Assembly (NCBI GenBank): GCA_902774145.1
Contig: CACYHC010000015.1
Location: 24,536 to 88,535 of the forward strand
From: an uncultured Bacteroidia bacterium
Lineage (GTDB): Bacteria > Bacteroidota > Bacteroidia > Bacteroidales > UBA932
Direction of reading: 5' to 3'
Length of the DNA stretch: 64,000 nucleotides
In this document: piece by piece, positions 22,175 to 45,714 of the stretch
How the letters are laid out: each line of letters opens with the position of its first letter
How positions within the stretch are numbered: position 1 is the stretch's first letter
Translations under genes and position numbers: made by a program
Notes under the pieces: model-generated
Database searches by the model: none
What the model was told of the DNA's origin: nothing
The model's input: the letters and a program-made list of their open reading frames with translations, nothing else

Positions 22175-24187
22175 TCAGCGCCTGAATTCCGTCAGGCAGC
22201 GGTCCAGGACCGCGTCGATTGCCGCCGTATCCAGATGCTGTCCGATAAAGACGATTTTCTGCATCCGGTCCCCATAAACGGGATCCCAGTCCCGGCGGAG
22301 CTGGGCGTCGCGCTCCAGCTGGTCCGACAGTTCGTCGGCGGGCATCATCGCATACCAGAGCCCCGCTTCGCGGACGTGCTTCTGGCGGCCCGCCTGCTCG
22401 AAAAGCCAGCACTTGCCGGGTTCGTCGGCGAACCAGCAGAGACCCTTTGCGCGGATGATGCCGGCCGGCCACTTGCGGAAGACCGCATCGTCGAAAAGGC
22501 CGAAATCAAAGGGTTCCCGGCGCGTATAGACATAGGTCTGAATGCCGTATTCGAGCGCTTCGCCCTCCGGTTCTTCCTCCTCTTCTTCGCCTTCGATGGC
22601 CGCAATCCACGCGGCGGATGTCGCGACGGCGTCGAAATCGAACATTCCCGTATAGATAATTTCGTCGAGGTCGATATCCCCGTAATTGCATTCCAGGATT
22701 TTCGCACCGGGATTGATGCCGTGCACAATCGCGCGCAGCCGGCCCAGTTCTTCCGGCGACACCTCCGCCGCCTTGTTGAGCAGCACGATGTTGCAGAACT
22801 CCACCTGCTCGATGAGGAGCCTTTCCAGGTCGTCTTCATCCAGGTCCGGCCGGTTCAGGGCTTCTCCTGCGCCGAATTCGTCGCGCATACGCAGCGCGTC
22901 CACCACTGTCACGATGCAGTCCAGGTAAGGCATGTCGCCCATAACATACTGATCGGCGAAAGAGGGGAGCGTGCTGATTGTCTGCGCAATCGGGGCGGGC
23001 TCGCAAATGCCGCTCGCTTCGATGACGATATAGTCGAATTTCCGCATCGTCGTCAGCTCGGCGATCTGGGCAATTAAATCCGATTTGAGCGTGCAGCAGA
23101 TGCAGCCGTTCTGGAGGGCTACCAGCGAGCTGTCGATCTGGCTCGCGACGCCCCCTTTTTCGATGAGCGAAGCGTCGATGTTGACCGAGCCTATATCATT
23201 GACTATCACCGCAAACTTGATGCCTTTGCGGTTGGCGAGAATCCGATTGAGCAGGGTCGTTTTTCCGCTGCCCAGATAGCCGGTTAAAAAAAAATCGGCA
23301 AAACTTAACACTTCGTCGCGCAGCAGGTAGGAGAGGCTGCGGTCCGTCCCGAAATTGCGGTAAAGCCCCCACTTGGGCCGCATGCCGGTGGTGCCGGTGC
23401 GCCAGAGGGACAGGCCCTTCTCGTCGATGCTGACCAGCGTTTTCCCGTCGCTGATGCGGGTGATGAGCAGCTTGTAACTGCCGTTGTCGTCGAAGGTGAC
23501 GGTCTCCTCGACGCTGACCCATTGCCCGAGGAAGGCGCCCAGGTCGGTTTTGGCGAGGTACACGTTTCCGGAGCCCTGTTCGGTGGGCGGGACGAAGCGG
23601 ACCTGGAACTGCTGCTTGCCGTTGGAAAGGCTCACGCAGGTAAAGGTGACCGACGGCAGGGAGATGTCCGCCGTGCCTTCTTTGTTGTCGAGCCCCTTGA
23701 GCTGGTGGACGTGCGCGAATTTATTCGTGGTCTGCATCCCTTCCGGCAGACGGAATTTCCAGCTGAAATGCATCGTTTCTCCCTTCTGCGCCACCATGTC
23801 GGAGGGGGAGTGGGCGTCGGTCTTGATTTCATTGCGCTGACGGTCCCGTACGTTGGCCTTGCCGCGGTCGTCGTCATTGTCGATGTGCATGTAGAAATCG
23901 AATACAAATTTTCCCAGCGCCACGTCAAAGCGCTGGCGGATATGGCGGAACGGAGCCTGCGCGTGCGCTCCGGATTTGTCCGGAGTCTCATAATTATAGC
24001 CGCTGGCGGTAATCAGCGCGTAGGTGCCTTCGTCATTGCCGTCGGCGGCGAGCATCCCGGCGGGGACGGACGGGGAAGGGGGTGTGACGGGAACGGTACC
24101 TTGTCCGGCCGGCGTGCAGGAAATCAGTCCGCCGAAAAGAAGCGTCAGTATGGGGAACATATCGGTAAATATTTTATATATTTGCAT
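22175..24187 (-). CDS. Chimeric ORF: secreted jelly-roll lyase-like domain fused to a CobW/G3E GTPase
   Basis: One 670-aa frame joins two unlikely partners. The N-terminal part (to residue ~300) has a lipoprotein signal (LTLLFGGLISC) and a jelly-roll polysaccharide-lyase-like domain with RQRNEIKT, HVHQLKG and RPKWGLYRNFG. The rest is a cytoplasmic CobW-type metal-chaperone GTPase: LTGYLGSGKTTLLNRIL, the metal motif GCICC, DYIVIEASG and LNKAAE, then a CobW C-terminal domain. The join is at a run of nine T (minus strand) at 23286-23294, where the lyase loses its last few residues and CobW its own start. The ATG at 24187 is used because the promoter box (24211-24218) lies between it and the upstream codon at 24229. 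A functional single protein is doubtful. Confidence 0.8.
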   Translation of the reverse strand: MQIYKIFTDMFPILTLLFGGLISCTPAGQGTVPVTPPSPSVPAGMLAADGNDEGTYALITASGYNYETPDKSGAHAQAPFRHIRQRFDVALGKFVFDFYMHIDNDDDRGKANVRDRQRNEIKTDAHSPSDMVAQKGETMHFSWKFRLPEGMQTTNKFAHVHQLKGLDNKEGTADISLPSVTFTCVSLSNGKQQFQVRFVPPTEQGSGNVYLAKTDLGAFLGQWVSVEETVTFDDNGSYKLLITRISDGKTLVSIDEKGLSLWRTGTTGMRPKWGLYRNFGTDRSLSYLLRDEVLSFADFFLTGYLGSGKTTLLNRILANRKGIKFAVIVNDIGSVNIDASLIEKGGVASQIDSSLVALQNGCICCTLKSDLIAQIAELTTMRKFDYIVIEASGICEPAPIAQTISTLPSFADQYVMGDMPYLDCIVTVVDALRMRDEFGAGEALNRPDLDEDDLERLLIEQVEFCNIVLLNKAAEVSPEELGRLRAIVHGINPGAKILECNYGDIDLDEIIYTGMFDFDAVATSAAWIAAIEGEEEEEEPEGEALEYGIQTYVYTRREPFDFGLFDDAVFRKWPAGIIRAKGLCWFADEPGKCWLFEQAGRQKHVREAGLWYAMMPADELSDQLERDAQLRRDWDPVYGDRMQKIVFIGQHLDTAAIDAVLDRCLTEFRR
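23145..23289 (-). repeat. 145-bp direct repeat, left copy (inside cobW)
   Basis: This segment encodes the CobW P-loop region (LLTGYLGSGKTTLLNRIL to EKGGVA). It matches 45547-45691 at 142 of 145 positions in the same orientation, 22,402 bp away. The two copies bracket the alginate locus. Confidence 0.9.
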
Positions 24188-24218
24188 GGATGAAATTGGT
24201 CCACCAATCGCAAATATA
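24177..24218. promoter_or_regulatory. Face-to-face promoters with a shared TTGGT-N2-ACCAA operator
   Basis: TATATTTG on + (24177-24184) is the -7 box for the esterase, and CAAATATA (24211-24218) is the minus-strand -7 box for the lyase-CobW gene. Between them lies TTGGTCCACCAA (24196-24207), an inverted repeat matching the TGGT-Nx-ACCA sites bound by FadR-type GntR regulators and the two sites at susC (45286-45310). Binding there would block both start regions. Confidence 0.6.
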
Positions 24219-24242
24219 CTGATTTTCACATATTATCCCACC

Positions 24243-25229
24243 ATGAAAAGGATTTTTTTACTCGCCTTGTTGACGCTTGCAGCTGCGTTGCCGCTCGGCG
24301 CCCAGCAGGTAACCAACCGCTACGCCATGAAACTCATGCAGAATGAGGACGGCACTTATTCCCTGCTCAAGGAAAAGAATTACCGGATGATCGAGGGTCT
24401 GGACCTGGACGCCATCCCGGACCTCCTCACACCCTATACGCATCAGAACGACAGGCTTACGGGCAAATTATACAATAAGGTCGAAACCGAGGAAATCGTT
24501 TATAAGACGGAAAACGGCCGCGAACTGAAAATCGCCGTTGACAAGGCGCTCGACCCCGCCGGTCCCGCTCCGGTGATGTTTTTCTGCCACGGCGGCGGCT
24601 GGGCCCGCGGAAACTTTGACGCCAGCCGCTCTCTGTCGAAGTATCTCGCGCAGCAGCACGGCATTACCGGTGTGCGCATCGAATATTCCCTGGCCGGCCC
24701 CGAAGACGTGAATGTCAACGTTTCCCTGCAGGATGTGCTGGACGCGATGGCGTATGTGTCCGCCCATGCCGCTGAGCTGGGCGTTGACGTGAAGCGCATG
24801 GGGATGCTCGGGACATCGGCCGGCGGCCACCTGGGCGCCTGCGCGGCCATCAGGTTCCCCGATACGAAACTGTTCGTGGGCTACAGCGGCATTTATGACC
24901 TGACAGCGGCGGCCATCGTCCAGAAAACGAAGGACCCGGTGCGCATCGCCTATTTCTGTGACCGCGATCCCGACGTCCTGCGCGCCGTCTCTCCGCTGCT
25001 GATGCTGCCCAAGCGTACGTCCCTGAAGGCCCTTTTGGTCTGTGGAACCGCCGATATTACCGTAGAATGCAGCCAGAGCCGCGATTTCGCCGATGCGCTG
25101 AAGCGCCGCAAAGGCATCGCGGAACTGCTCTGCTATCCCAATTACGATCACAACCTTTCCTCCAAGACTTCCGACAAGATGGAGGAAATCTTCTTCAAGA
25201 CGGTCGATTATATCGTGGAAAATCTCTAA
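24243..25229 (+). CDS. Secreted alpha/beta-hydrolase, probable carbohydrate esterase
   Basis: The 328-aa protein has a cleavable signal peptide (FLLALLTLAAALPLGAQQ). Its hydrolase fold resembles hormone-sensitive-lipase and acetyl-esterase families: oxyanion motif FFCHGGGWARG near residue 117, nucleophile elbow GTSAGGH near 200, acid in TADITVE and histidine in YDHNLSSK. Because it shares a candidate operator with the alginate genes, it may remove O-acetyl groups from alginate; the substrate is not shown by the sequence. The ATG at 24243 begins the signal peptide; the longer frame to 24024 is antisense to the lyase gene. It overlaps the convergent GntR gene by 4 bp. Confidence 0.78.
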   Translation: MKRIFLLALLTLAAALPLGAQQVTNRYAMKLMQNEDGTYSLLKEKNYRMIEGLDLDAIPDLLTPYTHQNDRLTGKLYNKVETEEIVYKTENGRELKIAVDKALDPAGPAPVMFFCHGGGWARGNFDASRSLSKYLAQQHGITGVRIEYSLAGPEDVNVNVSLQDVLDAMAYVSAHAAELGVDVKRMGMLGTSAGGHLGACAAIRFPDTKLFVGYSGIYDLTAAAIVQKTKDPVRIAYFCDRDPDVLRAVSPLLMLPKRTSLKALLVCGTADITVECSQSRDFADALKRRKGIAELLCYPNYDHNLSSKTSDKMEEIFFKTVDYIVENL

Positions 25230-25942
25230 ATCCCGATTCTGGGAACGTCCGCCAACATTTTTTCGGCCAGGCGGGTAATGGCTTGAAAATGCTGCTCGAT
25301 GCACTGCCCGGCTGCATCCGCGTCCTGTGCGCGGATGCAGTCGAGCATTTTTTTATGCTCGAGGTAAATCTGCTGCGCGGGCATCGCGCAGGCGCTGTAA
25401 TGGCGGTAATATTTCAGCACTTCGGGCGTAATGGTCAGCAGCAGGGAGGCGATGACCGGATTGTGTGAGGCCTTGGCTATCGTGAGATGGAAGGCGAGGT
25501 CCTTTTCATCGCGCAGCGGCGTTTCCATATTGGCCTGGAAATCCGCAAGGGCGCGCTCAAGGCGCAGCAGGTCCTCTTCTGTACGCAGCGTGGCGCAGCG
25601 CCGGATGGCCTCCTTTTCAAGCAGGACGCGGACGCTGACCAGGGACCTGAAATCGAAGCTGCCCGCTTCCCGCATTTCCCGGATCTGGTTGCGCAATACG
25701 GAAGGGGAGTAGTCGGCGAGCACCGATCCGCTTTGCGGGTAGGTGTGCAGGATGCCGTAAAACTCCATCCGCTGCAGGGCAAGGCGCACGTTGGAACGGC
25801 TGACGCCGAGCATCTCGGCGAGTCTCCGTTCGGACGGGATGCGCTCTCCCGGAATCAGCCTTCCGGCATCCAGGAGAGTGATCATTCCGTCCAGAATGGC
25901 AGCAATATGGTCGTCTTGTTTATGCAGTACCGCTCTGTTCAT
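25226..25942 (-). CDS. GntR family regulator, FadR subfamily
   Basis: The 238-aa regulator has an N-terminal winged helix (IPSERRLAEMLGVSRSNVRLAL, residues ~34-55) and an all-helical FCD ligand domain. Metal-site histidines can be seen in AFHLTIAKASHNPV and IEQHFQAI. FadR-type GntR proteins often sense sugar acids, and related regulators control alginate genes in marine Bacteroidota. By position it is the likely controller of this locus, sensing an alginate breakdown product. A TATCTTTG promoter overlapped by a palindrome precedes it. Confidence 0.88.
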   Translation of the reverse strand: MNRAVLHKQDDHIAAILDGMITLLDAGRLIPGERIPSERRLAEMLGVSRSNVRLALQRMEFYGILHTYPQSGSVLADYSPSVLRNQIREMREAGSFDFRSLVSVRVLLEKEAIRRCATLRTEEDLLRLERALADFQANMETPLRDEKDLAFHLTIAKASHNPVIASLLLTITPEVLKYYRHYSACAMPAQQIYLEHKKMLDCIRAQDADAAGQCIEQHFQAITRLAEKMLADVPRIGI

Positions 25943-25945
25943 ATC

Positions 25946-25961
25946 TACTACAAAGATAGTA
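25946..25961 (-). promoter_or_regulatory. Promoter of the GntR gene overlapped by a TACTA-N6-TAGTA palindrome
   Basis: TATCTTTG on the minus strand (25951-25958) fits the -7 box. The arms TACTA (25946-25950) and TAGTA (25957-25961) enclose it. A regulator bound here would block the promoter. It does not match the TTGGT-N2-ACCAA sites, so it may be chance. The rest of the 102-bp gap to 26045 holds nothing recognisable. Confidence 0.4.
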
Positions 25962-26044
25962 AAATTTCTAAAAATCCTGCGGCGTTAGGGCGCATTTACC
26001 CGGATAGGGTTGCGCAGCAACAAGCGACCGTTGCCGCAGGATTT

Positions 26045-26848
26045 TTAATGTGCCGAAACTGAAAAATCGGCGAACCATAACGTTTCGTCCCGGAGTTGGG
26101 AGGCCGCAGAGCGACCTTCCCCGAACCAGCGGTAGATTCCCCACTTGGGCCGCATTCCCTGCGCGCCGCTTCTCCACATGCAGGCGGGGGCGTCCTGGAT
26201 GTTCACCAGCGTTTTCGCATCCCGGATTCTCCGGATGCTTACGCTGTAGGACCCGGATGCGGAACAGACCATACGCTCCGTCACGCTTACCCATTCTCCA
26301 AGAAAATCGGAAAGGTTCACTTTCGCAAGGTATTTGAGCGTGCTCCCTTCCGACGACGGGGATACGTGGATCACCTGGAACTCCTGGCCGCTTCCTGCCG
26401 TCCGGCAGGTAAAGGTGATGAGCGGCTGGCTTATATCCGCCGTGCCCGCGCTGTTGTCCACGCCCTTTATCTGGTGTACGTGCGTGAAGGCCGTGGTGGT
26501 CTTCATCCCTTCCGGCAGCCGGAAGAGCCAGCTGTTTTCCAGCGTCTGCCCCTGCGCGGCGACCATTGAGGCCGGGGAGGAGTTGTCGGTTTTCAGTTCA
26601 TTGCGCTGCCGGTCAATATCCTCGCCCTTGTTGGTATCCGTATCGATGTGGATGTCGAAGGCGAAGACGTAGCGTCCCAGACTGCCGTCATATTCCTGGC
26701 GGATATGCTTGACTGCGGGACTGTGGTCCGCGTCCGGAGTCTCGTAATTATAGCCCTTCGCCCGGATGAGGCTGTAGGTGCCCCCGTCGTCACCATTGGC
26801 GACGAGGGTACCTTCAGCCGTGGGGTCAACCGAGGGGACCGAAATCCT
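26045..26848 (-). pseudogene. Jelly-roll lyase-like domain lacking its own start, in frame after a TGA
   Basis: These 267 codons encode a close relative of the lyase-like domain of the 22175-24187 gene: GTYSLIRAKGYNYETPD, RQRNELKTD, THVHQIKGVD and RPKWGIYRWFG, ending FADFSVSAH. The frame begins right after the TGA stop (26849-26851) of the fimbrillin-like gene and continues that gene's frame. There is no signal peptide, and the first ATG (26566) lies inside the domain. Either a nonsense change split a two-domain protein, or a deletion removed the start of a separate lyase gene. The fold resembles heparin-lyase-I and alginate lyase families, but the exact family is not assignable here. Confidence 0.75.
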
Positions 26849-28783
26849 TCATAGCGGTTGGATTTGCGGGCCGAATTCCTTGTACTCATCCACAAGGGTG
26901 AATGCTCCGGTAGCGGTGTCGAAACTCGCAATCGGATTCATATCGAGCGTGGTGACATTGCTCAGGCCGCTCTTGTCCTTGGCGTCCGATATGGTCCAAC
27001 TCTTGCCTCCGGCAAGTGTTCCGTAGCAGTAATTGTCGGAGGCCGTACCCTCATAGTTGGCTTTGTTGTCGTCGGTAGGCTGTCCGAATTTCAGGAACTT
27101 GGCATTGCTGCCAATGTTGGTGCCGTCTGCAACCCATGCGATATTGCCCGTTACTTCGGCGGAAGAAATGTTCCACGAGCGGAAGTAGCCGTTGGATGCC
27201 GCGATATTATAGAACAGGTTGTTGCTCAGGAAGAGCGCCTGGGTGCCTGAATCATCGGTGATGGAGGCACTGGTGTCGAATATCTGGCTGTTCAGGGCTG
27301 TTGCGCTGGAGGTGTAGAACACGTTGTCCGTAAAAGCGAAAAACTCATAGCTTGCAAGGCTTGTTGCCCCGGAACTGATGGCAATAAGTTTTACCGATGC
27401 CGCATCGAACTCGAAACGGTTTCCCGTGAACAAGATATTCTTTACCCCCTTGGCGAGGTAGGAGCTGTTGGGGGTATAGACGGACCTTGTAATGTTCCGT
27501 ACATCGCAGCTATAGAAGCTCAGTTCATCCGCGTCAGAGTCGTTGTCTTTCTTGGTGATGAATTGTCCGCTTGTCATAGCCGCCATATCCACAATGAGGT
27601 TGTCGAAGATCAGCGACCCTGATTTCAGCAGGAAGGATTTGCCGCTTGTCCCGGTATATGTGGCTGGATGTGCGGGGTCGTTGCTGGCAAGAACCACTCT
27701 ATCCGTAACGGTGACTTCCGAGCTGTTCGTGATGCTCGCGGAGGCTTCCAGGAAGATGACCCCCGTGATTCCGGTCTTGAAATTCGTGCCCGTTTTAAGC
27801 AGCGTCGCATCTCCGTCCGTCGCCTTGTTGTAGGTCATGCCGGCAATGAGGACATCGAATCCGGCATTGTACACGGCGTACCGGTCATAAGCGAAGGTGA
27901 CGTTTGCATCGCTGAAACGTCCCAGGGGATAGAGGGTCTTCCGGGCGATTTGAAGGTCACGGCTTCCCGTGCGGCTTGCCACCTGGGCATCCTCGGTGAT
28001 AAGTTTTGCCGTAAAGCCTTCCTGGGAATTGCTCCCCGTATGGCGCACGCTCACATAATAAGTTTCCCCTTTCACAAAAGCGGAGCCCTTTTCAGCCTTG
28101 AGACTCACATCCTTGTAATTCGGGGTCCCGGTACTAACACTGCTGGGACCGGAAGCACCTACGGGATTATTAAAAGTCGTCCGTCCAGTCATCGGACGGC
28201 TTCCGGAAAATTCCGCATAGACCACATTGTCATAATCCACGCTGAAACTCAGCAGCGCGCCGATCAGGCGGAAGCGGATGGAAGGATTCGGCGTCTCTCC
28301 GGTAATCTCTGCGGAGCCGACCGACACGAGCGCCTCCGGGTCGAAACTTCCTGCGACTGCCGTCTGCTCCCGGGGAAAATCTATCTCGCATGCACCTGTC
28401 TCGACATTGGCACTGATCGCCGCGGAATAGGGATAAATGGCGATAAAGCGGGTGGCACCCTCGCTCACCGTACCGGAGAAGGAGGTCCGGGCTCCGTCTT
28501 CGTCCGCCGTAAATACATTGGGCGTGGAGGACAGGTTGTCATAGACGGCAATCCTGTCGCCCTTCTTCCATGCAAAAGTGAGTTTTTTGTTTTCGGTATC
28601 GACCGTCCCCACCTCCAGTTTTGAAGCGTCCGCGTTTTCCAGTTCTTCGTCCAGACTGATGGTCGCGTTGAACGTCATGGGGACTTTGGCCGTCTCGGGG
28701 CCGTAGGGATTCTCCTTTTCAACGGTCTGGCAGGAAACGAATGCCGCCAGCACCAGGGCTGAGAATAAATAAATCTTTTTCAT
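26849..28783 (-). CDS. Fimbrillin-like lipoprotein with C-terminal parallel beta-helix-like region
   Basis: The 644-aa protein has a lipoprotein signal (YLFSALVLAAFVSC). A fimbrillin-like N-terminal region follows (FAWKKGDRIAVYDN, FIAIYPYSAAI). The C-terminal ~300 residues are short repeated beta strands (ILFTGNRFEFD, ALFLSNNLFYNI, VTGNIAWVADG), like the DUF4957/DUF5123 region found in Bacteroidota polysaccharide loci. It is probably a surface glycan-binding protein. The ATG at 28783 is preferred; the ATG at 28813 overlaps the preceding 44-aa gene. The stop TGA is followed in frame by a lyase-like domain (26045-26848). Confidence 0.72.
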   Translation of the reverse strand: MKKIYLFSALVLAAFVSCQTVEKENPYGPETAKVPMTFNATISLDEELENADASKLEVGTVDTENKKLTFAWKKGDRIAVYDNLSSTPNVFTADEDGARTSFSGTVSEGATRFIAIYPYSAAISANVETGACEIDFPREQTAVAGSFDPEALVSVGSAEITGETPNPSIRFRLIGALLSFSVDYDNVVYAEFSGSRPMTGRTTFNNPVGASGPSSVSTGTPNYKDVSLKAEKGSAFVKGETYYVSVRHTGSNSQEGFTAKLITEDAQVASRTGSRDLQIARKTLYPLGRFSDANVTFAYDRYAVYNAGFDVLIAGMTYNKATDGDATLLKTGTNFKTGITGVIFLEASASITNSSEVTVTDRVVLASNDPAHPATYTGTSGKSFLLKSGSLIFDNLIVDMAAMTSGQFITKKDNDSDADELSFYSCDVRNITRSVYTPNSSYLAKGVKNILFTGNRFEFDAASVKLIAISSGATSLASYEFFAFTDNVFYTSSATALNSQIFDTSASITDDSGTQALFLSNNLFYNIAASNGYFRSWNISSAEVTGNIAWVADGTNIGSNAKFLKFGQPTDDNKANYEGTASDNYCYGTLAGGKSWTISDAKDKSGLSNVTTLDMNPIASFDTATGAFTLVDEYKEFGPQIQPL

Positions 28784-28796
28784 AGCTGCATTCATT

Positions 28797-28931
28797 TTAC
28801 CATTCATATTCATCTTCGATGGTCACGTCTTCCACGGCGCTGTTCGTATAGTTGCCGCTCGTACAGCTGATAGCCTTATTCCCGATAATCAGAGGATTGG
28901 CATCAGGACTCTGGTATTCTTTTCTTTTCAT
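28797..28931 (-). CDS. Small protein, 44 aa, YQSP...EW type
   Basis: This unannotated short frame (MKRKEYQSPDANPLIIG..., ending DEYEW) fills the gap between the SDR gene and the fimbrillin-like gene. Its stop lies 13 bp before the preferred fimbrillin start. A second frame at 58669-58794 has the same layout: YQSP at residues 6-9, a hydrophobic stretch, an acidic tail, a final Glu-Trp, and a position directly upstream of another fimbrillin-like lipoprotein gene. It has no signal peptide or cysteine motif and the function is unknown. The shared features at two separate loci make coding likely. Confidence 0.62.
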   Translation of the reverse strand: MKRKEYQSPDANPLIIGNKAISCTSGNYTNSAVEDVTIEDEYEW

Positions 28932-28943
28932 GTCCGGATGGGA

Positions 28944-29699
28944 TTACGAGAAGAGGACTCCTCCGTTGATGTCGATGGCGGTGCCGGTAATGTATGAGGA
29001 TTCTTCGCAGGCGAGGAAGCAGACCAGGTCGGCGACTTCGCGGGCTTCGCCTTCGCGCCGCAGGGGAGCGGTATTGTGCAGGTTCTGACGGGCTTCGGGT
29101 TTGGTAAAGCGGTCGTGGAACGAGGTATTGATCATACCGGGGGCGAGCGCATTCACGCGGATGCCCTGGGGGCCGAGTTCCTTGGCCATGGAGCGGGTGT
29201 GGCACATGACGGCCGCCTTCGCGGTAGCGTACATGGATGCGCCCGGACCGCCGCCGTCGCGTGCAGCCTGCGACGAGAAGTTGACGATGGAACCGCCTTC
29301 GGTCATCATGGGAACGGCCTCGCGGGTGCAGAGGAATACGCTGCGCATATTCACGTCCATCAGGAAATCATACCATTTCTCGTCCTGCTCGGTGATGAGT
29401 TTGCGTCCGACGATGCCGCCCACCACGTTCACCAGCACATGCAGGGTAGGGCCGAATGCTTCGGCGGCCTTGGCGAAGAGATTCTTCACGTCGGCGGCCT
29501 TGGTCATGTCGCCCTGTACGGCGATGGCCTGCCCGCCGTCCTTCTTGATCATTTCGAGGGTTTCCTTGGCATCGGCTTCATTGTCGAAGTAATTGAGGCA
29601 TACCTTTGCCCCTTCCAATGCAAGTTTCACAGAGATTGCCCGCCCCAGATCGCGGGCGCCACCGGTCACGATGGCTACTTTTCCTTCAAGTCTTTTCAT
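28944..29699 (-). CDS. SDR family oxidoreductase, probable alginate-monomer (DEH) reductase
   Basis: The 251-aa classical short-chain dehydrogenase has the cofactor motif VTGGARDLGRAI, a conserved Ser in VNFSSQAA and the catalytic YATAK. The C-terminus ends with the usual TGTAIDINGG. In alginate loci an SDR reduces 4-deoxy-L-erythro-5-hexoseulose uronate to 2-keto-3-deoxygluconate, and this gene lies with the transporter, cupin and lyases. The cofactor (NADH or NADPH) cannot be decided. The ATG at 29699 starts the conserved sequence. The 79-bp gap upstream contains ACCAAACCAATT half-sites. Confidence 0.82.
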   Translation of the reverse strand: MKRLEGKVAIVTGGARDLGRAISVKLALEGAKVCLNYFDNEADAKETLEMIKKDGGQAIAVQGDMTKAADVKNLFAKAAEAFGPTLHVLVNVVGGIVGRKLITEQDEKWYDFLMDVNMRSVFLCTREAVPMMTEGGSIVNFSSQAARDGGGPGASMYATAKAAVMCHTRSMAKELGPQGIRVNALAPGMINTSFHDRFTKPEARQNLHNTAPLRREGEAREVADLVCFLACEESSYITGTAIDINGGVLFS

Positions 29700-29778
29700 T
29701 TTTTTATCTTTAATTGGTTTGGTTGTATCTTGATTTCTGCTAGGTACGCAAATGGCTGAAGCCTCGGTGCCCGGCGAT

Positions 29779-31086
29779 TTACTGCCGGTCTGCATCATGC
29801 TGGATTTTTCCGCCGAAGCAGAACACGCAGATCAGGCTCAGCGGCACGAGGGAGGCCCCCATGATGAAGAAGGGCGTCCAGTTGTCTCCCGCCGTCAGCA
29901 TCGGGATAAAGACCATCGTAAGGATGGTGCCGAGGACGGCGGCCGCACCGCCGAGCCCGGCCAGCGAGCCGATGCTCTTTCCCGTGTACATGTCACCGGG
30001 GAGCGTCTGGATATTGTTGATGGTGAACTGGTAGCCGAAAAGGATGACCGCCATCACGCTCACCGCCACCATGGGCTCCTGCACGAAGGCCACATAAATC
30101 AGCGACGGCAGCAGGATCACCGCACCGATCAGGATGGCAGCCTTGCGGGCGAATCCCACGCTGCGCCCCTTGTGGATAAAGTGGCTTGAGACCCAGCCTC
30201 CGGCAAGCGACCCCAGCGCGGCTCCTACATAGGGAATCCACATGTGGGTTGCCAGTTGTTTGATATCCATCCCGTATTTCTGTCCCAGATAGATGGGCAG
30301 CCAGGTGACGAACATCCACCAGATGGGATCCAGGAAGAAACGGCCGAGAATCACGGCGTAGCTTTTGCGGCGGGACAGCAGCTGTCCCCAGCTCAGGCCC
30401 TTGTCGTTGCTTACCTTGCATTCGGGCTGGCCGTTGACGATATACTCCTTCTCCTCTTCCGTAATCCAGGGATGCTCCTTGGGGCCTTTCTTATTGACCA
30501 GCAGCCACGGAACCACCCAGAGGGGAGCAAGCACGCCGATGGCGACAAAGGTCCACTTCCAGCCCACGGCGGCATAGATAAGCGCGATGAGGATGGGCGC
30601 AAGGATGGCACCGAGGGAGGCTCCTGCATTGAAGAATCCCTGGGCCATGGCCCTCTCTTTCTGCGGGAACCACTCGGCATTGCTCTTGACGGCTCCGGGC
30701 CACGGGCCAGCGACGCCGAGTCCCAGGCCGGCGCGGAATCCGGCGATCGACTTCACGCCTCCGGCGAAGGAAGTGAGCAGGTCGGAGATACCCCACACAA
30801 TCGCCGAGATCGTGAATCCCTTGCGCGTACCGATCTTGTCGTACAGTTTTCCGGAGAAAAGCTGCGACAGGCCGTACGCAACCATGAACACCATATTGAT
30901 GTCGCGGAAAAGTTTCTTGCTGAGGTCGTTGAACTCGGTTTCGCTCAGCCCTTCGGTGTTGATGAGCCCCAAATCTTCCACGATTTTGGCCCACATGATG
31001 CCGAGGGTGTTGCGGTCCAGGTAGTTAATGATGGTGACGAGCACGATAAGGCCCAGGACCCACCATCTCATTCCTTTGATTTTCAT
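29779..31086 (-). CDS. MFS transporter, hexuronate (ACS/ExuT) type
   Basis: The 435-aa inner-membrane protein has about 12 hydrophobic helices. It starts WWVLGLIVLVTIINYLDRN, with the family's NYLDR signature in helix 1, and GKLYDKIGTRKGF is the loop 2-3 motif. The anion:cation symporter branch includes glucuronate and galacturonate carriers. In alginate loci such a carrier moves unsaturated uronate monomers or their linear form into the cytoplasm. It lies 4 bp downstream of the cupin in the operon. Confidence 0.88.
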   Translation of the reverse strand: MKIKGMRWWVLGLIVLVTIINYLDRNTLGIMWAKIVEDLGLINTEGLSETEFNDLSKKLFRDINMVFMVAYGLSQLFSGKLYDKIGTRKGFTISAIVWGISDLLTSFAGGVKSIAGFRAGLGLGVAGPWPGAVKSNAEWFPQKERAMAQGFFNAGASLGAILAPILIALIYAAVGWKWTFVAIGVLAPLWVVPWLLVNKKGPKEHPWITEEEKEYIVNGQPECKVSNDKGLSWGQLLSRRKSYAVILGRFFLDPIWWMFVTWLPIYLGQKYGMDIKQLATHMWIPYVGAALGSLAGGWVSSHFIHKGRSVGFARKAAILIGAVILLPSLIYVAFVQEPMVAVSVMAVILFGYQFTINNIQTLPGDMYTGKSIGSLAGLGGAAAVLGTILTMVFIPMLTAGDNWTPFFIMGASLVPLSLICVFCFGGKIQHDADRQ

Positions 31087-31090
31087 ACCC

Positions 31091-31435
31091 TTACTTCTTT
31101 AGGAAGTCCGCCCGGTGGGGCGAGAAGATATCGATGAGCACGCCTTCCTCGAGGCAGACGCATCCGTGCAGTTCGTCGGGGGCCACATAATACCCGTCGC
31201 CCGCCTTCAGCACTTTCTTCTTGCGTCCGATGGTGAGTTCGAACTTGCCGCTCTCCACATAGGTGGCCTGGCTGTGATAATGCTCGTGCATCTGGCCTAT
31301 GGCACCCTTGTCAAAGTGCACCTTGACCACCATCAACTGGCCGTCATAACCCATAATCTGGCGTTTTACGCCCTCGCCGGCCTTCTCCCAGGGGAGGTTG
31401 GCGCCGATCTGAAAAGTTTCGCTTCTCGTCTTCAT
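31091..31435 (-). CDS. kdgF: KdgF-like cupin
   Basis: The 114-aa single-domain cupin has the metal ligands in HEHYHSQATYVESGKFEL and the second histidine in PDELHGCVC. KdgF proteins convert the 4,5-unsaturated monouronate made by PL17-type lyases to its linear ketone, speeding alginate and pectin catabolism. A paralogue with roughly 85% identical residues lies at 45715-46062, outside the locus. It is 9 bp from the PL17 gene. Confidence 0.85.
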   Translation of the reverse strand: MKTRSETFQIGANLPWEKAGEGVKRQIMGYDGQLMVVKVHFDKGAIGQMHEHYHSQATYVESGKFELTIGRKKKVLKAGDGYYVAPDELHGCVCLEEGVLIDIFSPHRADFLKK

Positions 31436-31444
31436 AATAAAAAG

Positions 31445-33583
31445 TTAATAATTGATTTTCATCGTATTTGTCGCGTAATCGACCGTGGCGGTTACGCTGT
31501 TTCCTCCCTTGAAGTCATAGCGGACCTTCATGCCGGAAGCGTCGTCGCTCAGGACGGTGACTCCCGTGCAGGAACGCTCCATGTCGGAGGCCAGTTCCAC
31601 CTGCAGGTCATAGTGCCCGTGCGTTTCGATGCAGGAGGCGAAGAGGTGGTTCCCGCGCCCCGTTTCCCGCAACAGGAAGGAGGGCTCGCTGCGCAGGTTG
31701 AAGTCCGGGTCGTTCGCGCCGGAGCGCAGCAGGTAAATCTGCGAGTCCATCGTCGTGGCGGTGGTGATGCTGTAGAGTTTCGTGCCGCAGATCCAGGTGT
31801 AGGAAGTGCAGTCCTTGCCGCCCTTCGCTTCGGCTTCCACCCACAGGTGTTTGTATCCGGGGGCGCTGCCCATCGTCCGCATCGTCTCCATCGCCCGCTG
31901 ATAGGGAACGGAAAGGCTGACCATGTGCCCGTTGTAGTGGATGGGGTAGTCATAACTGTGGCTGCCTGCGCTTTCGGCCTTCAGCAGGTCGATGATCAGC
32001 GGACCGCTGAGGAAGGGAATCCGGGCGAGGCCCATCCAGCGCTGCATGCGCACGCCCGGCGTGGCCGCGGTGTCGAGGGCGGCCACATACTGGAACGCCC
32101 TGTCGTCGTCCGAATAGGCGAGCAGGACGGGGGAGTAGCGCTCGGAGATGCTGATTTTCCCCTGGAAATGGGAGGTCTCGTCCACCACCAGCGTATTGTG
32201 CGCGACGGTGGTCATCGCGTAACTCTTGTTCTCCCGGGTATAGTGGCCCTTGTTTTTGGCTTCGATGTTTAGGAAACGGGATGCGCCATAATCGCTGATG
32301 ACCTCGTTGCCGCTGTCGTACCAGGCAAAGGTGAGTTTGTCATAATGCCCGTGGCTCAGGCCGTGCGAAGTGGCCTTGAAAGTAAGGGCATCGTCATCTC
32401 CGCAGCGCAGGACGGCAAAGGCGCCGTCATGGCCCTCAGGCCCGTCGGTATATAGTCCACTGCGGAAAACGGGATCTTTTGCCTGTCCGGCGGCAAGGTC
32501 CAACGCGGTACGGAAGCCCGCATCGGAGACGTTGACCTGTTTCTGATAGTCCCGTACGATGCTGAGCAGATAATCCTTGGAGGGGCAGTTGGCATAGACC
32601 ACATCCGTGGCGCAAATCAGTTCCTGCGCCCAGTATCCTTTCTGTAGGGCGTCGTTGAAATGGAAGAATTCTCCGTGATAGGCGAGTTGTACCAGCACAT
32701 CCATCGCCTTGAAAAGGATGCCGTCGCGGTATTCGAACACTTTCAGTTCCGGACGGTTGTGCTGCAGGCTCTCGGCAAAGAGCATGAAGGGCCAGATGGC
32801 ATAGCGCAGATAGTAGGCGCCTTCGGTGAAATAGCCTTCCGGCGAGAAGAGACTGTCCATCTGGCGGAGGAATCCGCCGCCGGGGCGGCTGCCGTACAGG
32901 GCCTTGTCCAAAAGGGCGTCGTCGCCCATCACGATGGCCGCCATGCCCACCGCGGCCTGGGCCCAGGTGCCGTGATTGTGCATTTTGTTGAAGGTGTCCT
33001 CATTGGCGCGGTTTTCCGGCGTGCCTTCCATGATGAAGGAACAGGCGGGGCGGAATACCCCGTTCTCAATGACCTTGCGCCCGGCCGGCTTGATGGCGTC
33101 ATAGACGCAGTCGTAAGCCATGGAGAGATGCACCAGCCATACGCTCTCGTTGAGCGTCTGCCAGAACAGGCGGCCGCGGACGGGGGAGTTGGTCAGGGGA
33201 TGCCAGTCCAGGGTGGGGTAGAGCTGCGCGTAGGCAAGCAGCATCTCTTCCACCTTGCGGGCGTATTTCTTGTCTCCGCTTACCTGATAGGCAAGCCCGC
33301 AATAATACATGTCATAATAATTGCGCTTGTGCGCCTCGTGCGTGTAGCCGCCGCCCCCGTCTTTCGGGACGGGCATTTCGAGCGGACGCCCAAGGGCGGT
33401 CTGCGCCTCCGCCATGACGCGCTCGAGCGAAGCGTCGAAGAGCGGCGCCTTGTCTGCGCGCTTGCGGATGGCTTTTACGCCGTCCCGGGTAAGGGTCAGC
33501 GAGGGATGCTCCACGGATGCCGCAAGGGTGCCGAGACTCAGCGTGCCGAACAGGAGAGTAAGGATAAAGTGCTTGATTTTCAT
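31445..33583 (-). CDS. PL17-type oligoalginate lyase (heparinase II/III-like)
   Basis: The 712-aa secreted enzyme has a signal peptide (FILTLLFGTLSLGTLAA). An alpha/alpha-toroid follows with the catalytic-type Asn-His in KMHNHGTWAQ and Tyr in GAYYLRYAIW. The C-terminal heparinase II/III beta-sandwich has SHGLSHGHYDKLTFAWY and the metal/histidine region VAHNTLVVDE. PL17 enzymes work exolytically on alginate oligomers, releasing unsaturated monomer. The start overlaps the PL6 stop (TAATG), so it is translationally coupled. Confidence 0.88.
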   Translation of the reverse strand: MKIKHFILTLLFGTLSLGTLAASVEHPSLTLTRDGVKAIRKRADKAPLFDASLERVMAEAQTALGRPLEMPVPKDGGGGYTHEAHKRNYYDMYYCGLAYQVSGDKKYARKVEEMLLAYAQLYPTLDWHPLTNSPVRGRLFWQTLNESVWLVHLSMAYDCVYDAIKPAGRKVIENGVFRPACSFIMEGTPENRANEDTFNKMHNHGTWAQAAVGMAAIVMGDDALLDKALYGSRPGGGFLRQMDSLFSPEGYFTEGAYYLRYAIWPFMLFAESLQHNRPELKVFEYRDGILFKAMDVLVQLAYHGEFFHFNDALQKGYWAQELICATDVVYANCPSKDYLLSIVRDYQKQVNVSDAGFRTALDLAAGQAKDPVFRSGLYTDGPEGHDGAFAVLRCGDDDALTFKATSHGLSHGHYDKLTFAWYDSGNEVISDYGASRFLNIEAKNKGHYTRENKSYAMTTVAHNTLVVDETSHFQGKISISERYSPVLLAYSDDDRAFQYVAALDTAATPGVRMQRWMGLARIPFLSGPLIIDLLKAESAGSHSYDYPIHYNGHMVSLSVPYQRAMETMRTMGSAPGYKHLWVEAEAKGGKDCTSYTWICGTKLYSITTATTMDSQIYLLRSGANDPDFNLRSEPSFLLRETGRGNHLFASCIETHGHYDLQVELASDMERSCTGVTVLSDDASGMKVRYDFKGGNSVTATVDYATNTMKINY

Positions 33584-35610
33584 TATCTTCCATTTTTAAG
33601 GATGGGGCCGGATTGGAAGAACCGGTTCCCCTTCAATGTAATCTTTTCCCAGGGGGCTTCGTCAAGCCGTATGCTGTAGCCGCCCCTGCCGCTGGCGTTA
33701 AAACGGCAGGAACTGATTTCCAGCACCTGTGCACCGATAATCTGGAGCACGGACCCGCGCACCTTGTTGCAGCAGTCGTCGAAACTGCAATCCCGGACCG
33801 TGACATACGGACCGGCGGTGCTCTCATCGCTTCCGCCGCGCCGGATATTCACCGGAATGCCGAGGATCCGTTCGAAGTGACAGCCTTCAATCAGCATATC
33901 GTCCGCATTGTATCTGCCTTTGTCCTCCGTTTCAGCGGCAAAGTTGACCGCATCTCCGCTGAGGGCGCTGAAATGGCAGTTCCGCAGGGTTACGGAGGTG
34001 GCAAAGGTCCCTTTCCCGCCCTTTACGGGCACGAATCCGCTTTCTCCGCAGTTGCTGAAACTGCAATCCTCGATCGTGAGGCTGTAGGGGCGGATCATCT
34101 TGGGCGCGGTGGTCACGATGGCCGATGCCAGGCTGTATCCGGGGAAGGCCTCTCCGCTGAACGAAAGTCCGCGGAGGACCGGTTCTCCGCCGTCCGCGAT
34201 GGTAATGAAATTGTCTTTCGAGCGCCCTTTATACACGAATCTGGGCGAGGCGCCGTCGGCCGCGCGGATTTCCAGGGGCTTGTCGATGACGAGCGCCCTC
34301 TCAAGGACATAGAGGCCGTCTTCCAGCAGGAGGGTCGAGCCCGCGGGGGCTTCTTCCACGAGGGTGGCAAGGGCCCCTGACGGTGATGCGTTCAGGATTT
34401 TGCCCGAAGTCCGGTCGGGGGAGGGTGCCCAGTCATACCACTTGGCGCCCCTGCCGGCGGCGAGTTCTTCCAGGGAGGGTTCCTCCGCGCAGGCCTGCGG
34501 GCACACGGTATTGTCCTTCCACAGGGTGCCTGCAGGCGGAAGCGTGCGTTCAAAGTCTTCGCCCGTATTGAATTCTATGCTTTTGCAGGCGGCGAAGGTA
34601 TTACCTTCGATAAGGGTGTTCTTTACCTGCATATAGCGGTTGGGGAGGGAGTTCGGCACGCCGTACATAAGCGCGAGCGCAGAGAAGAAACGGTCTCCGG
34701 CGAGCCCCTGGAAGAGGTTGCCCAGCACCTTCTGGTCTTCGCCCACGATACGGATGCCGCCGGTATTGCGCTTCCCGTGTCCGAAGAAACGGTTGCCCTG
34801 CGCGACGTTCCGGTCTCCGTGGCGCAGCGCCAGCACGCCCTCGCACTCGTAGAAGTCGTTGCGGGCGATCAGGTTTTCGGAAGATTTGATTGAAACTACC
34901 TCCACCTCGCCGTTGCAGCGCAGGAACAGATTGTCGCAGATACGGCTGCGGGAATTCTGCATGCACTGGTGCGATGTGCCGACACGGATCGTCTCGGCGC
35001 CGTTGGAACCGTAAACCGGACGGGGGCCGAAGATATTGTGGTCTATGTTGTGGAAGTTCTCGTCGCATCCGTCATAATTGAGCATGACGATGAGGGTTAC
35101 GCCGAGATTGAGTTTCCCGAGCAGGGAACAATGGTCCACGCTGTTGAACCTTCCGTAGAGATGTACGTAACTGTAGGCGGTCTGGCGCGAGGCCGGGTTG
35201 CAGTCGTCCAGCACGCAGTCGTGCATGCGGCAGTGCCGGGCCAGGGAATCCCCGTCGCGGAATTCGACGATGGCGCCCGAAGATGCGGTGCAGCCCTTGA
35301 AGAGCAGTCCGCTCACTTCGAGCCCCGTTCCGCTGATGTGCAGGGAACTTTCCCCGCTGAACTGCGCTCCTCCGGGTGTGCGGGGCATCACGACGACGGG
35401 ATTGTCGGCCGTCCCGCGCCCTCTCCATCTCAGATCCAGGTCCGCGTAGTCGCCGTCTTTGAGGATAATCGTATCTCCCGGCGACGCGCTCTCCAGGACC
35501 TTGCCCGCCCGTTCGGCGGAAACGGGACATTTCCGGTCCGAACATCCGGCCGCCGCCAGCAACAGGGCCCAGAGGACGCCTGTGCGTATGATAATATGCT
35601 TTCTTACCAT
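33583..35610 (-). CDS. PL6 family alginate lyase, long form
   Basis: The 675-aa lipoprotein (LLLAAAGCSD) is a parallel beta-helix lyase of the chondroitinase-B/alginate lyase family. The catalytic-type lysine is in VVSIKSSENL and the arginine in LALRHGDRN, about 22 residues later, with calcium-site acidic residues in NGEVEVVS. A C-terminal second beta-helix (residues ~400-675) matches two-domain PL6 members. It overlaps the next PL6 gene by 7 bp. Probably acts at the cell surface or in the periplasm on alginate polymer. Confidence 0.9.
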   Translation of the reverse strand: MVRKHIIIRTGVLWALLLAAAGCSDRKCPVSAERAGKVLESASPGDTIILKDGDYADLDLRWRGRGTADNPVVVMPRTPGGAQFSGESSLHISGTGLEVSGLLFKGCTASSGAIVEFRDGDSLARHCRMHDCVLDDCNPASRQTAYSYVHLYGRFNSVDHCSLLGKLNLGVTLIVMLNYDGCDENFHNIDHNIFGPRPVYGSNGAETIRVGTSHQCMQNSRSRICDNLFLRCNGEVEVVSIKSSENLIARNDFYECEGVLALRHGDRNVAQGNRFFGHGKRNTGGIRIVGEDQKVLGNLFQGLAGDRFFSALALMYGVPNSLPNRYMQVKNTLIEGNTFAACKSIEFNTGEDFERTLPPAGTLWKDNTVCPQACAEEPSLEELAAGRGAKWYDWAPSPDRTSGKILNASPSGALATLVEEAPAGSTLLLEDGLYVLERALVIDKPLEIRAADGASPRFVYKGRSKDNFITIADGGEPVLRGLSFSGEAFPGYSLASAIVTTAPKMIRPYSLTIEDCSFSNCGESGFVPVKGGKGTFATSVTLRNCHFSALSGDAVNFAAETEDKGRYNADDMLIEGCHFERILGIPVNIRRGGSDESTAGPYVTVRDCSFDDCCNKVRGSVLQIIGAQVLEISSCRFNASGRGGYSIRLDEAPWEKITLKGNRFFQSGPILKNGR

Positions 35611-36956
35611 TTTGTTCCGGCTTTTTCCCTTACGGCGGCCATGGATTCCGTATCATCCTTCACCTCCGGCTTCACCGTTGTCTTGTCAAGGCTGACGCCC
35701 TTGACGCTGCCTCCCCAGATGGTGTTATTCTCCCAAAAGATGGCGGAGGCGGGGGTGCCTTCCAGCACCTGGACGGGGATCATATACGATTTGGACGATA
35801 CAAAAATATTGCCGCTGACTTTCAGATTCTGCGGTGCGCTGTCCTGGGTGGAGCGGGTGCCGTAATTGACGAAAAGCCCGTAGCGGCAGTCCACAAAGAC
35901 GTTGTCCCGGACCGTCGCATCCTTTACCGTCCAGTATCCGTTGAGCGCCGCTTCGCTTTCGCCTTTCACGACGCACAGGGCGCTTTTATAGTTCGTCCCC
36001 GTGAGGTTCAGGAACGTGTTTTTCTCCACGAGGTGGCCTTCGCCGATAATCCGCACTCCGCCGACTTCCGTCTTTCCGCCGGAAAGGAAATAATTCCCGC
36101 GAACGATGCAGTTGTTCCCGTGACGCAGTGTCAGGGTGCCTTCCCCTTCTTCGAAAAGGTTCCCCTCATAGAGGTTTCCGCAACTCTTGTTGGAGATGAT
36201 TTCAGCCAGTTCACCGTTGCAGCGCTGGAAATGGTTGCCGCTCACGGTGCAGCAGGCGTCGGACATGGAAAAATCACTGGTCCCGATGCGCAGGGCCTCC
36301 TGGCCGTTGCGTGCTTTCCCGGCGTCGTCGTAATGGGTATAGGGGCGCGTGAAATAGTTGTTCCTGATGATATGGCGGGGGACAATGCCGTCCTCCATCC
36401 ATACCACCATGAGGCAGCCCATGTTCCGCTTGTCGATGAAGGTGCAGGAGGAAATTTCATTGTGCTGCCCGTACAGGGAAACCCACTTCGTATCGACGGT
36501 GGAGGCTTTGCTGCCGCTCCCGTCGATTTTGCAGTCCGAAATCCTGCAGTGGCTGCTTCCTTTGGCGAAGGTCAGGACGGAGCCTTTGACCGAGGTGTCG
36601 AGCCCCTTGAAGCAAAAGCCCTCCGCGACGAGCCAGCTGCCCTGCAACTGGATGGACGATACGCCCGTAAAGATGACTTTCCCGGGGGTGCGGGCCTTCA
36701 GCGTAACCGGGGCGCCTTCCTTCCCGTTGCAGGTCATTTTGAGCGCTACGGCATCATAGGTGCCGTCTTCCCAGACGATGACCGTTCCCGGGACCGCCCC
36801 GCTCACCGCCTTCTTGAAAGAGGCGGCGTCGCTGACGGAGATGACGCTCTCGCCGGCGGGCAGGGGACCGGGGGTTGCGGAACCGGCATCCTGGCAGGCC
36901 CCCAGAAGGAGACCTGCCAGGACGGCGGCGTATTTGATGGACTGCTGATGCATCAT
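35604..36956 (-). CDS. PL6 family alginate lyase, short form
   Basis: The 450-aa lipoprotein (VLAGLLLGACQD) is a single-domain PL6 enzyme. It shares the family core with its neighbour: NGELAEIISNKSCGNLYEGN with the catalytic lysine, TLTLRHGNN with the arginine, and VGGVRIIGEGH. It lacks the second beta-helix. One long and one short PL6 often occur together and differ in preference for mannuronate or guluronate blocks. It overlaps the upstream IPT gene by 4 bp (ATGA). Confidence 0.9.
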   Translation of the reverse strand: MMHQQSIKYAAVLAGLLLGACQDAGSATPGPLPAGESVISVSDAASFKKAVSGAVPGTVIVWEDGTYDAVALKMTCNGKEGAPVTLKARTPGKVIFTGVSSIQLQGSWLVAEGFCFKGLDTSVKGSVLTFAKGSSHCRISDCKIDGSGSKASTVDTKWVSLYGQHNEISSCTFIDKRNMGCLMVVWMEDGIVPRHIIRNNYFTRPYTHYDDAGKARNGQEALRIGTSDFSMSDACCTVSGNHFQRCNGELAEIISNKSCGNLYEGNLFEEGEGTLTLRHGNNCIVRGNYFLSGGKTEVGGVRIIGEGHLVEKNTFLNLTGTNYKSALCVVKGESEAALNGYWTVKDATVRDNVFVDCRYGLFVNYGTRSTQDSAPQNLKVSGNIFVSSKSYMIPVQVLEGTPASAIFWENNTIWGGSVKGVSLDKTTVKPEVKDDTESMAAVREKAGTKW

Positions 36957-38869: not shown

Positions 38870-38870
38870 G

Positions 38871-40577: not shown

Positions 40578-40596
40578 GGTGTTCAAACTTATAGGT

Positions 40597-42105: not shown

Positions 42106-42117
42106 CTCGGTTCAGAT

Positions 42118-45100: not shown

Positions 45101-45261
45101 ACGGTCCCCGTGGTGGTACCCTTGATGACTACGGACGCCCCGGGCACCGGGCCGTCCTCGTCGGTAACGATACCGCGGACCGTCTTCCTGGGCGTCTGTG
45201 CGGCAGCCGTCAGGAAGGTCAGAAGCGCGATGAACAGCGCTGTCAATCTGAGTTTTGGCAT
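42118..45261 (-). CDS. SusC family TonB-dependent transporter for alginate oligomers
   Basis: The 1047-aa outer-membrane transporter has a signal peptide (FIALLTFLTAAAQ) and a carboxypeptidase-regulatory-like domain (VRGIVTDEDGPVPGASVVIK). The plug has IRVRGTGSISADSSPLIIID and ILKDAASAAIYGSRAANGV, and a 22-strand barrel ends YTFGIDVKF. It is the first gene of an alginate operon that runs on the minus strand to about 26 kb. A promoter and two candidate GntR operators precede it. Confidence 0.95.
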   Translation of the reverse strand: MPKLRLTALFIALLTFLTAAAQTPRKTVRGIVTDEDGPVPGASVVIKGTTTGTVTDMDGKYAIDIPSNNTVLVFSSLGYGNVEMPVGNQREINVKLSVDATVLDDVVVVGYGTQAKSHLTGSISKIGGDGSFVDMPVSDVTTALQGQVAGLTISNTTSEVGVTPSIRVRGTGSISADSSPLIIIDGYPVPDGLSTVNASDIKSIEILKDAASAAIYGSRAANGVIMVTTKSGKADEPHYSVKVYQGIKRAYQLHDIISATDYLRLQEFEESVGGPAVKGQDRAAAWIERNIGATDWQREALRDFAGITNAQFTVSGGRKAMRYYTSAAYTRDQGIMLQNSVQKIQFRTKMDVDLSRHFSFGYNISASYQKTERPMNNFIDFYRTPSFLPVMHNDWTTAFTGGYTGYARGSHFNSITTPTGTEDAYGNPGWDRNVSPFNSANNNPKSIMANTERWGESFSGLGNVYLEINIVKGLKFKTSNGFNVRYAPSYTYENANARKDGNPSTATFNSLLYVDLLSENTLTYNLVKGRHKLDLLAGYTIENTRVQRVSLEGSGFPTDDIHTLNAATIFTLAAENNGNGAGTGTFRYPDKILESALARASYSYADKYLISASIRLDRSSLFTEGHRNAWFPSVSAGWRISQEPWMQHVGWINTLKLRASYGVTGNNNVDYWSALEVLGGANYAFGSGNGTLATGTANISSTLANPNITWEQTDEFNVGIDFSVLKDRINLTLDGYYSITRALLFQQPTQSFTGFTHYWNNIGRVRNAGVEIQLNTLNIKKREFSWGTDINFSLSRNRLLEIGGESNKITQGERNENYIAQVGEPLIQYYGFKTLGVWNSLAEIQANPHFANDVPGGLRIWDANGDGKLDDNDRVPLGNPYPMFTYGMTNTFKYKGLDISFLIQGVQGVTVFNGDVFYNETHKYNAAYLKDRWVSEEHPGNGRVPYGKNGYDIMFTDYPLQDGSYVCLRNATVGYTFNSKVFKGKLGGLRLYLTGNNLAYIWAPDYKGVNPESRYTGGVYSSPMISGYQRGGFPITSTYTFGIDVKF

Positions 45262-45285
45262 AAAAAATGGCTATTAGTCTGTACT

Positions 45286-45351
45286 TTGGTTAACCAAATT
45301 GGTTGACCAGTTAAATTTTCGCAAATATAATCATAATCTCAAACAATGCAA
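45286..45351 (-). promoter_or_regulatory. susC promoter with two tandem TTGGT-N2-ACCAA operators
   Basis: On the minus strand TTG (45349-45351), 19 bases, then TATATTTG (45322-45329) form a good promoter. Directly downstream lie two inverted repeats: TTGGTTGACCAG (45299-45310) and the perfect TTGGTTAACCAA (45286-45297). They cover the transcription start and early leader, where a bound repressor would block transcription. The arms match the site between the esterase and lyase promoters. Confidence 0.65.
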
Positions 45352-45383
45352 GTATTTGAAAAAGAATTCCTAATTTTTCGGCC

Positions 45384-45461
45384 ATGACTCTTTCTAAAGC
45401 GACCGTCGAAAATCACATCTACAATGCGATGAAGCAGCTTAGGAGCAGGCTGCAAAAATAA
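45384..45461 (+). pseudogene. Remnant of an ECF sigma factor (region 4 end)
   Basis: Twenty-five codons (MTLSKATVENHIYNAMKQLR...) match the C-terminal helix-turn-helix of the ECF sigma factors that sit upstream of FecR/SusC genes in Bacteroidota. No upstream part of a sigma gene is present. It lies just inside the right boundary of the alginate locus and is probably left from an earlier rearrangement. The sequence that follows (to ~45530) contains no intact FecR gene. Confidence 0.6.
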
Positions 45462-45488
45462 TTTAGGTACTTTTCGTTTCTCGTGTCC

Positions 45489-45698
45489 TTATATTAAAAA
45501 AATGAACACGGAAAGCGTAATGAGACCATGACGTCGACAGGGCCTGGCGACGCCCCCTTTTTCGATAAGCGAAGCGTCGATGTTGACCGATTCTATATCA
45601 TTGACTATCACCGCAAACTTGATGCCTTTGCGGTTGGCGAGAATCCGATTGAGCAGGGTCGTTTTTCCGCTGCCCAGATAGCCGGTTAAAAGCCGCAA
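45489..45698 (-). pseudogene. 5' fragment of a cobW-type GTPase gene
   Basis: The frame encodes RLLTGYLGSGKTTLLNRILA through EKGGVA, almost identical to the CobW part of the chimeric gene at 22175-24187. It then turns into unrelated sequence and stops. Only the P-loop portion (about 50 residues) is retained. It lies 17 bp downstream of the second cupin gene on the same strand, which was probably the original setting of cobW. Confidence 0.75.
45547..45691 (-). repeat. 145-bp direct repeat, right copy
   Basis: This copy matches 23145-23289 at 142 of 145 positions in the same orientation. Recombination between the two copies would excise the alginate locus and rejoin the cobW 5' fragment to the rest of the gene in frame. 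Confidence 0.9.
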
Positions 45699-45714
45699 AT
45701 TTACGGCTAATTTT

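Follow-up and report, generated by a model that had tools for sequence, protein, structure and literature searches.

How does an alginate utilisation locus come to lie between two copies of one piece of a metal-chaperone gene? The question is raised by a stretch of 64,000 nucleotides (nt) from the draft genome of an uncultured Bacteroidia bacterium (handle G000; contig CACYHC010000015.1), here called the window, in which part of cobW, encoding a CobW-type GTPase, occurs once on each side of an alginate locus of 22.26 kb (23290 to about 45549). A repeat search of the window gave a 148-nt direct repeat, 97% identical, with a left copy (R, 23142..23289, minus strand) and a right copy (R', 45544..45691, minus strand) that both cover the P-loop region of the GTPase, start at the same base to within 1–2 nt and lie 22,402 bp apart from start to start. 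The copies differ by four mismatches and share a longest identical run of 99 bp, a similarity far beyond chance, and the repeat sequence was found at only these two places in the whole 2.23-Mb, 76-contig assembly. The remaining repeat families between 20000 and 50000 are short or 60–80% alike, except for two cupin genes that are 84% alike over 300 nt. The pair of same-orientation P-loop copies on which the original prediction was built is therefore real. The locus between them probably came from a lineage close to a goat-rumen relative and entered at the 5' end of cobW through illegitimate (non-site-specific) recombination.

That relative, G078 (JAFSVL010000028.1, locus L030), is a metagenome-assembled genome (MAG; RGIG3510) of another species of the same genus; the named relatives of the window genome are mostly MAGs from ruminants. 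Between the repeat copies the window is 98.0% (23290-29765) and 98.5% (29754-45404) identical to G078 at the DNA level, while the flanks reach 84.8% in cobW, 81.3% in hydG and 78.9% across susC2-susD2. In 500-bp steps, excluding matches of 100 bp or less and matches shorter than 450 bp below 84%, identity is 94–100% inside the block and 66–89% in the outside steps that align, and the change falls on the inner edges of R and R'. Similarly, synonymous divergence (dS) from G078 is 0.023–0.110 in the 14 block genes computed (omitting the open reading frame (ORF) 26045-26566) versus 0.618–1.148 in 13 flanking genes. As read from sequence divergence, this coincidence of the identity step with the repeat edges, together with the contrast in dS, shows that the alginate locus was acquired horizontally, as a block of 98% identity in a background of about 80%. 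G+C content hardly differs between the block (57.9%) and its two sides (57.8% and 58.8%), so a test based on G+C would miss this transfer. A 2.5-kb piece of the block had matches in 34 of 400 genomes of the genus, its own included, but at 98% only in its own genome and in G078 (also listed under the handle G271, with the same contig number and coordinates); of the other matches spanning most of the piece, the best was at 71%, and shorter ones reached as much as 80%. For the lyase at the edge of the block, matches were found in 16 of 250 genomes, the best besides its own genome having 69% amino-acid identity.

The arrangement in relatives indicates where the locus sits when cobW is intact. In all, 97 loci were compared (80 around cobW and 17 around hydG), many of them truncated where a contig stops, and those around hydG having about 1.5 kb of flank on each side. 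In G078 the alginate locus lies directly upstream of a complete cobW, which is followed by a hydE-like gene, hydG and hydF, and on the other side of the locus are sigma and anti-sigma genes and susC2. In another relative (L029, JAEEJZ010000021.1) no alginate locus intervenes, and cobW directly adjoins the related sigma (65% amino-acid identity) and anti-sigma (54%) genes and susC2. The locus is thus a presence/absence segment between cobW and sigma, and a position inside cobW as the ancestral state was considered and rejected, given the intact cobW of G078. The proposal of a polysaccharide locus inserted into a metal-chaperone gene is accordingly right in part: the locus came in at cobW and the recipient's cobW was duplicated, but in G078 it stands upstream of the gene and not within it.

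The joints, read by eye from the printed sequences, carry little homology. At the left joint (23289/23290) the donor lyase (...GATTTTT) meets recipient cobW (TTTTAACCGG...) where G078 keeps the end of the lyase, a spacer, the cobW promoter, the ATG and about ten codons. Where a homologous joint might lie at this end, only a T/A run is seen and no donor-type cobW remains, though it may have been deleted. At the right joint a short microhomology, CTGGCG (6 bp), is common to the donor anti-sigma gene and to cobW and leads into R'. Just inside this joint are a remnant of a sigma gene of the extracytoplasmic function (ECF) type (45384..45461, plus strand), in which the first codons are joined to the C-terminal helix-turn-helix and the middle is deleted (25 amino acids, 84% to the G078 sigma), and two pieces of an anti-sigma gene (45502..45549, plus strand; by-eye sequence comparison) that end in CTGGCG and form the right edge of the block. 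Judged by their likeness to G078, these remnants are the donor's. Beyond R', a remnant of the cobW promoter and spacer without the start codon region (45692..45714, minus strand; GTAAATTTGC at 45695-45704) aligns to the lyase–cobW spacer of G078, and when this remnant was taken together with the cupin end that adjoins it, none of 5000 mononucleotide shuffles aligned as well. The promoter reads GTAAATTTGC in the window, GTATCTTTGC in G078 and GTAACTTTGC in L029, and GTAAATTTGC presumably fits both the Bacteroidetes promoter motif and the target core of CTnDOT, GTANNTTTGC.

These joints suggest a route for the insertion. A break at the start of cobW would have lost about 36–40 bp; from the broken end, copying would have run through the donor locus as far as CTGGCG, returned there to the recipient's own strand to repeat its last 148 bp and stopped at the same base as before, where the end was joined to the other side. 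A single break–copy–switch event of this kind would explain why both cobW copies end at the same base, although there may instead have been two events, the first of which shortened cobW before the locus came in.

The origin of the two copies bears on a different route, implied by the circle of the original prediction, in which part of cobW was carried on a circle excised from the donor and underwent a single recombination with cobW in the chromosome (Campbell-type integration), leaving two partial copies. The geometry fits, and in an Escherichia coli conjugation study circle integration is the explanation given for partial target duplications of 109–950 bp among integrants (PMC3240628). Such a circle must leave the donor allele in one copy at each differing site. 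Yet of the 22 positions at which one or both copies differ from G078, 18 have a non-donor base in R and R' alike, R alone being donor-like at three and R' alone at one, which argues against a circle carrying donor cobW and makes both copies, by their alleles, the recipient's own. Later gene conversion, or a donor with a recipient-like cobW, could hide the donor alleles, but both copies also lack the cobW start, and the circle is left with an outside chance.

An assembly or binning artefact, in which DNA of a G078-like strain from the same sample was joined into the contig, is improbable. It draws on the source being a draft assembly of 76 contigs, on other tracts of 98–99% identity with G078 elsewhere in that assembly, and on the fact that 98% is also an identity seen between strains within a species. 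Against it, the joints offer no long shared word (a run of A on the left and 6 bp on the right) on which a k-mer assembler could join; G078 has nothing like R, R' or the deletions in sigma and anti-sigma; the block occupies the corresponding position in G078; and another contig (C26) passes from 98% to 78% identity along its own length.

Distinctly improbable is insertion by an element whose integrase or transposase has since been lost, with the 148-bp repeat as its target duplication or att site, even though the repeat does flank the block and a promoter motif that might serve as target is present. At 148 bp the repeat is longer than is usual for a target duplication made by a transposon; it consists of cobW coding sequence, and on the right the joint falls within an anti-sigma gene of the donor. 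A Pfam scan of 14 block proteins (the ORF at 38871-40586 and short ORFs were outside the scan) found no integrase, transposase or relaxase domain, which bears out for these proteins the expectation that none is left inside, and no mobile-element domain was found among the 20 proteins scanned in all. The window contains no tRNA, megablast returned no plasmid record matching the block (phage records were not part of this search), and there was no Rfam match at gathering score within 15000-52000. Vertical inheritance in both species with local rearrangement only, which the shared site and gene order might suggest, is hardly credible, being already contradicted by a dS about 20-fold lower inside the block than outside.

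Several points nevertheless weigh against illegitimate insertion from a G078-like donor as set out above. The common endpoint of R and R' is accounted for only by the inferred single event, and the four differences between the copies imply that the duplication is not fresh. The deletions in sigma, in anti-sigma and at the cobW start may have come in any order, and the junctions are known from one draft assembly, the only genome of its species in the comparison. In addition, the block is not uniform (dS is 0.110 in one gene and identity 94.4% in one 500-bp step), and the direction of transfer rests on the intact neighbourhood in G078, so that a third species may have been the source.

The insertion appears to have altered cobW in a way that excision would not repair. 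The left copy (22175..23289, minus strand) is whole except for its promoter, start codon and first ~10 residues, and retains both the GTPase domain with its P-loop (PF02492) and the CobW_C domain (PF07683). It does run on into the rest of cobW, as first described, but without a start of its own and fused in frame to the lyase, as one ORF of 684 amino acids (22175-24229). R', in turn, is indeed only the 5' part of cobW next to a cupin gene, and in addition both of its ends are broken off; where R and all eight relatives compared have the glycine of NDIG, R' has glutamate. The start segment (ATG to PVL) is present in all 40 relatives given (from 40 of the 80 cobW loci) but absent from both R and R', as are the start and first beta strand (PVLLLTG), and a search of the whole assembly found no further cobW copy. 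Looping out the block would therefore not rebuild a normal cobW, contrary to the original prediction, as the product offers only a TTG in frame before a stop, and excision would not restore an intact target gene. If cobW is expressed at all, it must be, on this reading of the frame, as a lyase fusion or from an internal start such as GTG; the 35 codons that precede the P-loop motif include four in-frame start-like ones, namely one ATG, within the lyase, two CTG, and one GTG, from which the protein would begin VLSFADFFLTGYLG. Decay of the left copy was considered and rejected, since the unique changes in the window lineage (21 nonsynonymous, 66 synonymous) are proportioned much as in L029 (18, 52) and L030 (16, 52), with no relaxation visible. 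By sequence match, the P-loop GTPase domain is common to this gene and to E. coli YjiA, a CobW-type GTPase (PDB 1nij), from which the window gene differs in lacking its own start and first strand and in following a lyase in frame.

On the recipient side of R', the neighbouring cupin gene (cupin B, 45715..46062, minus strand; PF07883) is as diverged from the G078 cupin (dS 1.14) as flanking genes are from their G078 counterparts, while cupin A, inside the block, has a dS of 0.074 to the same gene. The tail of cupin B and the spacer that follows it resemble the lyase tail and spacer of G078, with 6 of 5000 shuffles as good when the promoter is left out. Cupin B is probably a relic of an earlier alginate locus of the host's own, in which case a locus native to the recipient would once have stood here, been largely lost and then been regained by transfer, although cupin B may instead be a cupin paralogue of other origin. 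Beyond it lies the native susC2-susD2 pair (46204..51228, plus strand; dS 0.68–0.86 to G078). By eye, susC2 is without the N-terminal domain (around window 46180-46300) that in L029 and G078 precedes its plug region, and neither the sigma nor the anti-sigma gene that belongs to it is left, so its regulation has probably been rewired. A fuller account, which we put forward only tentatively, is that repair of a broken end at the start of cobW captured 22 kb, that a lost locus was thereby regained at the same site without a mobile element, and that the joint between lyase and cobW serves as a substitute start.

By gene content the block is a predicted alginate utilisation locus, with a SusC/SusD pair (Pfam plug and SusD families) beside lyases of alginate-related families. 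From the left edge at 23290, it begins with the polysaccharide lyase that has lost its last residues and is fused to cobW (23290..24229, minus strand; PF14099, dS 0.023 to G078). The stretch 24243..31435, at 98% DNA identity to G078, holds an esterase on the plus strand and, on the minus strand, a GntR/FCD regulator, an SDR, an MFS transporter and cupin A (all by Pfam), together with a second lyase-like stretch (about 26063-26839, minus strand; 56% to the first lyase) and an ORF without a Pfam match (26849-28813, minus strand). These are followed, all on the minus strand, by an alginate lyase/heparinase-like gene (PF05426 and PF07940) and two chondroitinase-B-like genes (PF14592 twice) at 31445..36956, which we take to be PL17-like and PL6-like in CAZy terms, a TIG-domain protein (36953-38896), an ORF that looks similar to it (38871-40586), a SusD-like gene (40597-42105) and a SusC-like gene (susC1, 42118-45261; dS 0.030 to G078).

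Transfer of DNA between Bacteroidales species was reportedly described by Coyne et al. in 2014, and interspecies exchange of such loci is already known; the present case differs in showing both joints and a duplicated piece of a host gene, with no mobile-element gene found. One report states that exchange of native polysaccharide utilisation loci between species was confirmed experimentally (PMC13188876), and a paper on alginate loci of the human gut discusses ancient transfer (PMC5966431). A 2026 survey of alginate utilisation loci in rumen Bacteroidota reports little evidence of horizontal transfer and predicts a single event, partly from G+C (PMC13377030). The window locus resembles those loci in its SusC/SusD pair with PL6-like and PL17-like lyases but displays its transfer at the nucleotide level with G+C nearly the same inside and outside. 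The insertion also resembles homology-facilitated illegitimate recombination, as the E. coli study describes it (PMC3240628), in that foreign DNA was joined over a few shared bases and the target gene was partly duplicated; in contrast, neither joint here showed itself to be homologous, although donor-type cobW may have been deleted from the left one, and R and R' are both duplicates of recipient-type DNA. Titles and opening lines of abstracts among the matches listed contained no description of a polysaccharide locus flanked by a repeated segment of one of the host's genes. The window thus offers an example, resolved to the base, of an alginate locus that moved from one species of a genus to another. 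In it the recipient keeps, at that very site, an apparent remnant of an older locus of its own, making loss and regain directly testable. The joints point to a way in which loci of this kind may be integrated with no integrase, at the expense of the gene next to them; the start of cobW appears to have been removed, and a piece of it duplicated, where the cluster landed in this relative of rumen species.

Near-identity with G078 also occurs elsewhere in the genome. A comparison of part of each genome (804 kb of G000 outside the window against 1,018 kb of G078), in which some stretches were picked after the first near-identical blocks had been seen and only alignments of at least 500 bp were counted, yielded 260 kb in 72 blocks, mostly at 70–89%, with 18.3 kb at 97.5% or above and one mixed block of 9.5 kb at 91.5%. 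A second carbohydrate locus (G000 C26:1-14500, L275, against G078 C54), which by eye encodes SusC/SusD and large surface proteins, is 94–100% identical, apart from one 500-bp step at 88%, then becomes mosaic and then falls to 78%, all within one contig. Similarly, what looks by eye like an RND-type efflux operon (G000 C19:6762-13107, L228) matches G078 C21 at 99%; on the left the match has a sharp edge, and on the right it stops where the G078 contig ends. Gene flow between the two lineages thus extends beyond the alginate locus.

The uninterrupted order cupin–cobW–hydG, proposed as a check on the insertion, was not seen in the 97 loci, given their cut ends and short flanks. cobW occurs with hydG only in L030, where a lyase and not a cupin precedes cobW, and in the window's own locus (L109). 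The hydE-like gene that separates cobW from hydG in L030 is not present at this position in the window (22158-22174), and its best match in the stretches of the window genome that were compared is on contig C29, at 39%. A further relative (L031, JAFTEQ010000070.1) has a diverged alginate locus at 14775-21065, on the strand opposite to cobW and some 4 kb downstream of it, suggesting that the neighbourhood of cobW may attract such loci.

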